From: a virus
Virus record (IMG/VR): IMGVR_UViG_3300037171_000099
Coordinates: 1-25,266 of that record
Direction: 5' to 3' (one strand)
DNA: 25,266 bases
Of this stretch, positions 22,573-25,211 are shown in pieces; positions within the stretch are counted from its first letter, which is position 1, and the number at the start of each line of letters is the position of its first letter. The notes under the pieces are model-generated. The model worked only from the letters and a program-made list of their open reading frames with translations. It did not search any database and was not told the DNA's origin. The position numbers and the translations under genes were made by a program.

Positions 22573-23400
22573 ATGCCCGTTAAAACTGCGATCGAATGGA
22601 CGGAATTTTCTTGGAATCCTTTTGTCGGCTGCACGATCCACACGGCCGGATGCACGAACTGCTACGCGATGCGCGTGGCGCGGCGGCTGCAGGAGTTCGG
22701 CCAGCCGAGCTACCAGGGCGTGGTCAAGGTGGTGAACAAGTCGCCGGTCTGGACCGGTCGCGTCAATCGCGCCAGCGAGGCGCAGTTCCGCAAACCGTTC
22801 AAGATCAAAAAGCCGTCGCTGATCTTCGTCAATTCGATGTCGGACTTTTTCCATCCGGAGGCGCTCGATGAGTGGCGACTCGACGCGCTCGGGGTCATGC
22901 GATCCACGCGGCACCAATATCAGGTGCTGACCAAACGACCGGAAAATATCGCGCCGTGGCTCGCGCGCAGCGGCTTGCCAATTCCCTCGAATATGTGGAT
23001 AGGCGCCACGGTCGAGCGCGCTGACTGCGTGCACCGCATTGTTACGCTGCGAGACGTGCCGGCGAAGATCCGCTTTCTGTCGATCGAGCCTTTGATCGGC
23101 CCGGTCGGACCGATGGATTTGACCGGGATTTCGTGGGTCATTCTCGGCGGTGAATCCGGGCCAGGCGCGCGCAACATGCGGCCGCTCTGGGCGCGCGAAG
23201 TCCGCGATCAGTGCATCGCGCAGAACGTGCCGCTGTTTTTTAAGCAGTGGGGAATCGCTTACAACAATCCGATTTTTCACGAAGCGCCAGCCGGAACCAC
23301 CGGCACGCAGTGGGTCGCAAAACACGATCCGGTCGGCAAGGGCGGCTCGAAGCTCGACGGCTGCGAGTGGAAAGACTATCCCGCGTTCGGTGCCCCATGA
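22573..23400 (+). CDS. Phage Gp37/Gp68 family protein (DUF5131, putative radical SAM type)
   Basis: The 275-residue protein matches the Gp37/Gp68 family: IEWTEFSWNPFVGCTIHTAG at the N-terminus and CTNCYAMRVARRLQEFG after it, with Cys20, Cys27 and Cys30 that could hold an iron-sulfur cluster. Further motifs are LIFVNSMSDFFHPEAL, YQVLTKRPENI, MWIGATVERAD, RFLSIEPLIGPV, and VILGGESGPGARNMRPLW with VPLFFKQWG. The family is widespread in phages and plasmids. Its reaction is not established; the Cys pattern suggests radical SAM chemistry. It is followed by an ATGA overlap. Confidence 0.9.
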   Translation: MPVKTAIEWTEFSWNPFVGCTIHTAGCTNCYAMRVARRLQEFGQPSYQGVVKVVNKSPVWTGRVNRASEAQFRKPFKIKKPSLIFVNSMSDFFHPEALDEWRLDALGVMRSTRHQYQVLTKRPENIAPWLARSGLPIPSNMWIGATVERADCVHRIVTLRDVPAKIRFLSIEPLIGPVGPMDLTGISWVILGGESGPGARNMRPLWAREVRDQCIAQNVPLFFKQWGIAYNNPIFHEAPAGTTGTQWVAKHDPVGKGGSKLDGCEWKDYPAFGAP

Positions 23401-23681: not shown

Positions 23682-24025
23682 CCATCGCAGACCAGGAGAC
23701 GATCGACTGGATCGCGGTCGACGTGGGCTTGCCGGATAGCGATACGACGGTCCTGATCTTCGGTCCCGCCGACGAGCCAGTGTGGCTGGGCTGTTACGCA
23801 TTGGGCGGAGATCCCGAGGGGACCAGGCCGACGTTGAGCCAGTGTTACTCCCAGGTCTCGATGAGAACGGGCGCATCGTCGGGCAGCCGATCGGTGCGCG
23901 TCAGGCCGCGCGGCAGCTGCGCCCGCAGGCCCTCGAGCGTCGGCGACTCCAAGTGCACCGGCATCGGCGTGATGCCGCCGTGGGTCATGCAGGGGCGCGC
24001 GATGAATCGTTCGGGCGATCCGTAG
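23678..24025 (+). pseudogene. DUF551-like gene, truncated 3' by a recombination junction
   Basis: The first about 45 residues (MTIADQETIDWIAVDVGLPD, SDTTVLIFGPADEPVWLGCY) match DUF551, a small phage family of unknown function with the pattern 'W..V...LP..D..VL.......VWLG'. The family normally ends with a Trp-rich 'THWM...P' tail. Here the frame instead continues for about 69 residues (ending AMNRSGDP) antisense to the gene at 23845-24171, and this part looks like shadow sequence. The break is near 23810-23845. The gene is probably non-functional or makes an altered protein. Confidence 0.6.
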
Positions 24026-24171
24026 ACGGTCCACAGGATGGTCTCGTCGACCTTCTCCGCGCCGGTCTGCATCCGCTGCGCGGCCCGGGCGTCGATCAGG
24101 CGACTACCGCGACCGTTCCACACGACCAGGACCGTGGCGAACAGAGCGTGCATCACGTGCGACAGGTTCAA
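23845..24171 (-). CDS. 108-residue hypothetical phage protein (inverted paralog of 23397-23681)
   Basis: The C-terminal two thirds read TILWTVYGSPERFIARPCMT, GGITPMPVHLESPTLEGLRA and QLPRGLTRTDRLPDDAPVLI then ETWE, clearly related to the 94-residue protein on the other strand. The N-terminal part (MNLSHVMHALFATVLVVWNG) is a hydrophobic extension not found in the paralog. The start is TTG at 24171 with GGGAG 7 bases upstream; ATG at 24072 is an alternative without the extension. It follows the winged-helix gene in the same direction. Confidence 0.68.
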   Translation of the reverse strand: MNLSHVMHALFATVLVVWNGRGSRLIDARAAQRMQTGAEKVDETILWTVYGSPERFIARPCMTHGGITPMPVHLESPTLEGLRAQLPRGLTRTDRLPDDAPVLIETWE

Positions 24172-24198
24172 CAGGTCGCTCCCAGTTTTTGCACAGGG

Positions 24199-24207
24199 TT
24201 ATCCACA
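24199..24207 (+). other. DnaA box TTATCCACA
   Basis: A perfect consensus DnaA box lies in the 51-base gap between two leftward genes. A weaker similar site TTGTCCACC follows at 24211-24219. It could mark a host-DnaA-dependent replication origin beside the replication-type gene, or be chance. Confidence 0.45.
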
Positions 24208-24222
24208 ACCTTGTCCACCGTT

Positions 24223-24645
24223 TCAGTGCTCGCGCTTAGCTCGCGCGGCCGCCATTTCATCGACGAACAGCGACCGCGTCTCGGGTGGCGCCGGCAGCGT
24301 CGAGGGCTTCGGGTGGTCGATTTTCTGCTCGGCCCAGGCGTTGATCACCAGGTAGCGCGAGCGCCGGATGTCGTACCGGCCAATCAGGCCTTCGCGCTCG
24401 ATCTCCCGCAAACAGGCTTCGATCCTCAAGCCGAACGCGCTCTCGCCTGGGAACAGTTCGAACGCAAAAAGGCCGGGGTCCTCGCGCATCCGGCCTTGAT
24501 CGTCGGCGATCGTGTGCAGCAGCATCCGGCCTTGATCGTCGGCGATCGTGTGCAGCAGCAGATACAGCAACCGCGAGTCGTGCGACAAGTTTCGGAAGGA
24601 CTGCCATCGGCAGATATCGGGCGGCAGCTGGCGCTTTCGGCTCAT
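24223..24645 (-). CDS. Winged-helix/replication-type phage protein with internal duplication
   Basis: The 140-residue protein starts MSRKRQLPPDICRWQSFRNL, then SHDSRLLYLLLHTIADDQGR. The pattern 'L...SRLLY..L...ADD.GR...DP..F....FP' is that of phage replication or helix-turn-helix proteins whose N-terminus resembles replisome organizers. The middle has LRIEACLREIEREGLIGRYD and RYLVINAWAEQKIDHPKPS. A 36-base perfect tandem duplication doubles LLHTIADDQGRM inside the DNA-binding helix region. I chose ATG at 24645 because AAGGA lies 5 bases upstream; the frame is open to 24765 but that part is not protein-like. Confidence 0.72.
   Translation of the reverse strand: MSRKRQLPPDICRWQSFRNLSHDSRLLYLLLHTIADDQGRMLLHTIADDQGRMREDPGLFAFELFPGESAFGLRIEACLREIEREGLIGRYDIRRSRYLVINAWAEQKIDHPKPSTLPAPPETRSLFVDEMAAARAKREH
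24487..24558. repeat. Perfect tandem repeat, 2 x 36 bp, in frame
   Basis: The units 24487-24522 and 24523-24558 are identical. Each encodes LLHTIADDQGRM on the minus strand. The length is a multiple of three, so the frame is kept and the protein gains 12 residues. Confidence 0.95.
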
Positions 24646-24797
24646 CGCATCCTTGTCCCGGTTTTTGTTGGTAGGGCCGCCGAGCTCGGCCGCAAGCGCA
24701 AATTGCGCGCACGCGCCCACGAAGATTGTAAATCCAAATCTTAGATCCGAATCCGACGCCCGCACGCCCGCGCGCGCCCGTTCTTTAGCTGAAAAAA

Positions 24798-24817
24798 TTC
24801 GCGAAAAGTTTCGCGAA
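24798..24817. promoter_or_regulatory. Operator-like palindrome O1
   Basis: The 20-base palindrome TTCGCGAAAAGTTTCGCGAA has 9-base perfect arms and a 2-base centre. It lies upstream of the leftward winged-helix gene. An almost identical site lies 40 bases further right. Confidence 0.75.
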
Positions 24818-24823
24818 CTAGGG

Positions 24824-24838
24824 ATTTAACAGTTAAAT
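24824..24838. promoter_or_regulatory. Palindrome between the two operators
   Basis: ATTTAAC, A, GTTAAAT: 7-base perfect arms and a 1-base centre. It differs in sequence from O1 and O2 and could be a site for another protein or part of a promoter. Confidence 0.5.
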
Positions 24839-24857
24839 TCGCGAAAAGTTTCGCGTG
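24838..24857. promoter_or_regulatory. Operator-like palindrome O2
   Basis: TTCGCGAAAAGTTTCGCGTG repeats O1 with two changed end bases. The extended direct repeat (AAATTCGCG...) spans 24795-24815 and 24835-24855. A -35-like TTGACG (24862-24867) follows directly on the plus strand, so a bound repressor would block rightward transcription. No good -10 box at 17-base spacing is seen. Confidence 0.7.
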
Positions 24858-24920
24858 GTGCTTGACGAACGCGGGGCAGCTGTGACCGTAATAAGCGCAG
24901 CAAAAAAACCGGAGCCACCC

Positions 24921-25211
24921 GTGAGTGCCACCTTCCACACCAGCATCGGCGCGATCCCCTTGAGCGCGGCTGCCGTCGAGCAGATTCGCGAGAAGGTTCG
25001 TGGGGTGTTGTACAACGGCAAGGACGTTGACCGCCGCGCCTTCGGCTGCTGCTCGACGGGGGAAAAAATCGCGGTTGCCCTGGTGCTCGAGCGTCACGAT
25101 TTGCTCGAGGGCTACGGCATGCTCGAGGCCGTTGACCGGCTAGGCGCGGACTGGTACCGCGCGGCGCTCTACGTGAAGCGCAACGGTTGGGAATCGGAAG
25201 TCGGGCCGTGA
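24921..25211 (+). CDS. 96-residue hypothetical protein, first gene right of the operators
   Basis: The protein reads (GTG)SATFHTSIGAIPLSAAAVEQ, then IREKVRGVLYNGKDVDRRAF, then CCSTGEKIAVALVLERHDLL, EGYGMLEAVDRLGADWYRAA and LYVKRNGWESEVGP. The start is GTG at 24921 with GGAG 6 bases upstream. The frame is open back to 24855, but that would place the start in O2. It is compact, with an early helix and likely mixed fold. No family recognised. Its stop overlaps the next gene by GTGA. Confidence 0.65.
   Translation: MSATFHTSIGAIPLSAAAVEQIREKVRGVLYNGKDVDRRAFGCCSTGEKIAVALVLERHDLLEGYGMLEAVDRLGADWYRAALYVKRNGWESEVGP

Follow-up and report, generated by a model that had tools for sequence, protein, structure and literature searches.

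Palindromic octamer arrays beside a phage rep gene as putative initiator-binding iterons, and their co-variation with a Rep residue

Described initiators and the phage locus

The initiator O of phage lambda has an N-terminal DNA-binding domain, and its iterons, four (or six) inverted repeats of about 19 bp, lie inside gene O with an AT-rich block alongside (PMC7466680). The RepA_N initiators of staphylococcal plasmids and of a PLE satellite combine a DnaD-like domain with inverted-repeat iterons that converge on an A-tract (PMC7145576; PDB 4pql, 4pt7, 4pta, 5kbj). Phage SPP1 has two origins, one of which, oriL, is in the gene for its replisome organizer (gene 38, gp38), and encodes its own helicase loader and helicase (PMC6316719). 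In most temperate phages, origins and the specificity of their initiators are unmapped.

The DNA analyzed here is a tailed phage fragment of 25,266 bases from IMG/VR (henceforth the window), with genes for terminase, portal, major head protein and tape measure. Near its right end, an array of short palindromes occupies the intergenic region between a leftward gene, here termed rep, and a rightward small gene. We propose, with a probability of roughly 0.75, that these palindromes serve as iterons to which Rep binds, within a phage replication origin that overlaps the divergent promoters of rep and of an excisionase-integrase (xis-int) gene group. Like lambda, the locus combines an initiator DNA-binding domain with inverted-repeat iterons beside an AT-rich block; unlike in lambda, its palindromes are 8 bp long, recur at 12-bp steps and precede rep, whose product consists of the DNA-binding domain alone. 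The iterons are thus outside the initiator gene in the window, and inside it in actinophage relatives. The likeness to RepA_N systems lies in inverted sub-repeats meeting at an A-tract (TTCGCGAAA-AG-TTTCGCGAA in the window; A/T-rich linkers in several relatives); unlike those initiators, the window Rep has no match to the Pfam RepA_N profile (PF06970), which does not appear among its profile matches at cut-offs of E 1 and of E 5. Unlike in SPP1, neither a helicase loader nor a helicase was recognized beside the window rep. Finally, the actinophage proteins annotated as 'replication initiation protein / RepA-like' (e.g. in Gordonia phage Lucky10 and Mycobacterium phage Brujita) share a homologous N-terminal domain and TCGCGA arrays with this locus, but, unlike in the window group, the arrays, with 10-11-bp steps, are contained in rep itself, and the protein has a length of 260-300 aa.

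The octamer array and its surroundings

A preliminary description of this DNA had reported two near-identical 20-bp palindromes 40 bp apart, a third palindrome between them and TTGACG right after the second copy, all of which we located. The two copies, TTCGCGAAAAGTTTCGCGAA at 24798-24817 and TTCGCGAAAAGTTTCGCGTG at 24838-24857, differ in their last two bases and are spaced by 40 bp from start to start. These sequences are real and not chance occurrences: at up to 3 mismatches the 20-mer has these two matches in the window and no others, with 0.03 expected from shuffled sequences. As judged from related phages, the unit is better described as a self-complementary octamer, TTCGCGAA, than as a 20-bp operator, with four octamers in the window grouped 2+2 (starts 24798, 24810, 24838 and 24850):

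24798-24805, unstranded: octamer 1, TTCGCGAA, self-complementary
24810-24817, unstranded: octamer 2, TTCGCGAA, 12 bp from octamer 1
24824-24838, unstranded: palindrome ATTTAACAGTTAAAT, whose final T doubles as the opening base of the second 20-bp copy
24838-24845, unstranded: octamer 3, TTCGCGAA, 28 bp from octamer 2, where relatives have 12 bp
24850-24857, unstranded: octamer 4, decayed to TTCGCGTG, 12 bp from octamer 3
24862-24867, plus strand: TTGACG, possible -35 element of a rightward promoter; similar TTGAC/TTGC sequences occur in relatives

A viral-contig scan with the 20-mer (six contigs) and searches for Rep relatives (an overlapping set) gave eight related phage records in total. In each of them the region ahead of rep has, at the corresponding position, 4-6 octamers spaced by exactly 12 bp. 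The window array is split by a TTAACTGTTAA palindrome, which in the sister record L004 lies beside an unbroken four-octamer array; hence the 40-bp spacing is peculiar to the window record, and the operator pair four helical turns apart that had been envisaged gives way to contiguous octamers. The outermost octamer on the rep-distal side is imperfect in three relatives too (CTCGCGAA or CTCCGGAA). Since the linkers vary among relatives, while the octamers hardly do, the array is not a simple tandem duplication. All five octamers of one record, L010, read [TC]TCCGGAA, i.e. TTCCGGAA replaces TTCGCGAA throughout, and another, L011, has one TTCCGGAA among its TTCGCGAA copies; both words are self-complementary, so that the octamer changes preserve the dyad. 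Every relative genome has a single array, and for this reason the check suggested earlier, a search for further sites elsewhere in the genome, does not decide the question where an origin is concerned.

A pattern scan of GTDB species genomes yielded six stretches, five of them taken for coding or tandem look-alikes on account of their flanking frames and with no Rep by profile search, and one, from Pseudoclavibacter, falling within a Rep-type gene. A host search that took in 369 genomes from one class and a further set of 398 from one phylum turned up no close Rep and eight distant ones. A distant Rep relative, L029, has seven TCGCGA copies directly upstream of rep (-99 to -31) at 11-12-bp steps, like the window group.

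The array is flanked by rep, about 150 bp away, and by a divergent gene group, with two further elements on the rep side:

24187-24219, plus strand: three DnaA-box-like 9-mers at 12-bp steps just past the rep stop (TTTTGCACA at 24187, TTATCCACA at 24199, TTGTCCACC at 24211)
24223-24645, minus strand: rep, predicted winged-helix replication-initiator domain (phrog_2149, E 3.7e-13; alignments; AF2 model)
24724-24754, unstranded: AT-rich block conserved in an 8-genome alignment, reading GGATCTAAGATTT on the rep strand, with GC-rich arms on either side
24921-25211, plus strand: small gene, first of the rightward group, with homologues in L003-L007
25208-25266, plus strand: first part of a DUF4224/excisionase-type gene that runs past the window end (95% identity to the L004 gene over 19 aa)

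The AT-rich block lies between the array and rep and is a candidate unwinding element. DnaA boxes directly follow rep in 8 of 8 genomes checked, the window included, typically as TGTGGATAA and then weaker boxes at about 12-bp steps. Both are plausibly features of an origin, and GC skew gives no clear origin signal, with no minimum at the array. On the other side, the excisionase-type gene of L004 matches DUF4224 (E 1.3e-7) and the phrog_1266 excisionase, and in relatives the group divergent from rep comprises an excisionase-type gene, a ribbon-helix-helix (RHH)-like protein and a serine or tyrosine recombinase. A consensus scan for a sigma-70 promoter near TTGACG found no full match. Two other genes of the neighborhood are also kept in relatives, namely a DUF5131 gene near the replication region (22573-23400; Pfam E 6e-79) and, downstream of rep, one for a small protein of unassigned function (23845-24171), found in every relative with the module.

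Rep and its co-variation with the octamer

The N-terminal domain of the window Rep (residues 43-127) matches the PHROG 2149 and 1408 profiles (E 3.7e-13 and 1.2e-12). Given that the protein has 140 aa (128 aa in relatives) against the 289 positions of the profile, it is a domain-only relative of these families and not a full member. The additional length stems from a 12-aa tandem duplication (LLHTIADDQGRM twice), encoded by an exact 36-bp tandem duplication at 24487-24558 that is absent from L004 and all other relatives; it may be a real event or an assembly artefact. AF2 predicts a winged helix, with a mean pLDDT of 75 in the best of five models and poorer values in the rest. The N-terminal domains of staphylococcal RepA are among its top structural matches (4pql: Z 7.9, rmsd 3.3 over 87 residues), and unrelated winged helices reach the same Z. 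A sequence search of the PDB with two alignments retrieved nothing credible.

Actinophages, among others, encode Rep homologues with identities of about 24-32%. Many actinophage rep genes contain two clusters of TCGCGA at 10-11-bp steps, situated just after the region for the DNA-binding domain, and in Gordonia phage Mcklovin TCCGGA takes the place of TCGCGA. The spacing within these genes cannot be divided by three. When codons are shuffled with the protein sequence left unchanged, about one copy results (means 0.3-1.9), compared with the 5-8 observed. In the open-access literature we found no paper that describes these arrays or ties TTCGCGAA or TCGCGA to phage replication.

A comparison of 84 distinct Reps, using the motif that follows the wing, revealed that the DNA word and one Rep residue change together. 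All 77 Reps with Asp in this motif (Q[RKY][IV]D) have TCGCGA-type arrays; the window Rep, with QKID, carries this specificity-linked Asp. The seven non-Asp Reps include five with TCCGG-type arrays, one with a mixed array (L011/G008) and one with neither, such that 5 of the 6 that have an array are of the TCCGGA type. The association of Asp with array type has a Fisher p of 2e-7 with kinship disregarded; on the tree the type of array changes four times, with 3-4 switches that are independent, and of 4 paired comparisons 3-4 concur and none conflicts, although so few switches do not bring an independent-pairs sign test below 0.05. This position, D98 in the 128-aa numbering, is the best separator of the DNA types among all Rep columns, and its codon lies outside the in-gene arrays; the next-best two columns are located in or beside those arrays and may follow from them.

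The Asp/Ser prediction was written down before a DNA-first scan for TCCGGA, covering at least 120 stretches, among whose listed matches were 13 further Rep-type genes. Three of these were too distant to read, and the ten with a readable motif all have Ser, a result that is one-sided and weaker than it appears because Ser is common in the wider Rep family. Matches of the TCGCGA-first scan outside the known groups (L029 and the Pseudoclavibacter prophages L026/L042 and L036) are all Asp. A second protein-first scan added a small number of loci, none of them a new TCCGGA type, and hence offered no test of the prediction. There are exceptions to a strict correspondence. L011/G008 has Ser (QAVS) despite a mostly TTCGCGAA array, and two Ser Reps of the TCCGGA-first scan (L314 and L374) have some TCGCGA copies mixed in, which suggests that Ser may accept both words. 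Conversely, no comparable array lies close to the genes of more distant proteobacterial Reps whose motif is QRID or QKID (L268-L270, L177), and therefore Asp alone does not suffice to predict the word.

Together these observations make it well supported, from comparative data, that Rep binds the octamer arrays. We consider it about an even chance that a single post-wing residue (Asp as opposed to Ser, Gln or Glu) determines which of the two palindromes, TCGCGA or TCCGGA, makes up the origin, as part of a recognition code in a large family of phage initiators. This family would span phages of Actinomycetota as well as of other hosts, and its arrays could be placed either within rep or ahead of it. 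Binding word and initiator residue can both be read from sequence and co-change in several lineages, offering a testable site, protein and single-residue switch; the predictions extend beyond the uncultured window group to well-studied laboratory actinophages. If the code is true, replication-compatibility groups of phages could be defined from sequence.

Proposed role and its alternatives

In the proposed mechanism, Rep, probably as dimers, would align on the 12-bp-spaced palindromes and open or mark the adjoining AT-rich block; together with host DnaA, on the boxes at the other end of rep, it would start phage genome replication. Given the position of the array between divergent genes, bound Rep would regulate two promoters as well, that of rep and that of the xis-int genes. 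The array with its conservation, the paired change of octamer and Rep residue and the DnaA boxes are seen directly in the sequences; binding, origin activity and autoregulation are predicted. Points against the iteron-origin interpretation include the GC skew, the exceptions to the Asp/Ser correspondence and the fact that Rep lacks the C-terminal half of the longer initiators.

The strongest alternative, which we regard as unlikely, is that Rep binds the array solely as an autorepressor or switch of the divergent rep and xis-int genes, the origin being elsewhere. The divergent placement beside a TTGAC/TTGC element would suit such a role, as would the missing GC-skew minimum and the fact that window-group arrays are upstream of rep, when most arrays of the wider family are inside it. 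However, the in-gene actinophage arrays are hard to explain as promoter operators and occupy the position of lambda-type origins, and the DnaA boxes and AT-rich block are conserved together with the array.

Still less probable is an operator for the RHH-like regulator encoded between xis and int (2194-2475 in L004, and in relatives). An 8-bp palindrome suits one RHH dimer, as in MetJ/Arc, and all seven relatives whose sequence extends over that region have the gene. Yet its putative DNA-reading strand, RFMIRLP, is the same in G002, which has TTCGCGAA, and G006, which has TTCCGGAA, and the co-variation of Rep leaves this protein no role. The RHH assignment itself comes from sequence alone, with a low-confidence structure model and a fold search that gave no match.

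The preliminary description had favored operators of a phage repressor for two divergent genes. Its view of protein-binding-type sites in a divergent intergenic region stands, but Rep displaces a repressor as the favored binder, and this best-supported binder is encoded in the window (24223-24645), where the regulator had been thought absent. A classical CI/Cro-type repressor would fit a temperate-type phage whose relatives have integrase and excisionase genes, and the divergent region itself; we deem it highly improbable in view of the unconserved 40-bp spacing, the single-copy array and the Rep residue that co-varies with the octamer. Least credible of all are sites for a host protein or a partition centromere: plasmid centromeres can hold arrays of short repeats, but no par genes were recognized nearby, the octamer changes together with a phage Rep residue, and the GTDB scan gave just the six stretches described above.

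Apart from the TCGCGA and TCCGGA arrays, some rep genes contain other repeats. A second repeat is present in L168 (1912-1950), in the same place in L169-L174 and L179, and also in L164, L165 and L180; it reads GGGGAACA at 8-bp steps, or CTGATTCC at 7-bp steps in enterobacterial and Pseudomonas relatives. Within rep it comes immediately behind the TCGCGA array or behind the DNA-binding domain. A Rep relative from a Pseudomonadota prophage, L274, has CACGTG at 10-bp steps within the gene, about 366-416 from the rep start, and L167 has ACGCGT copies at 1904-1953; these are possibly other palindromes in the same role.
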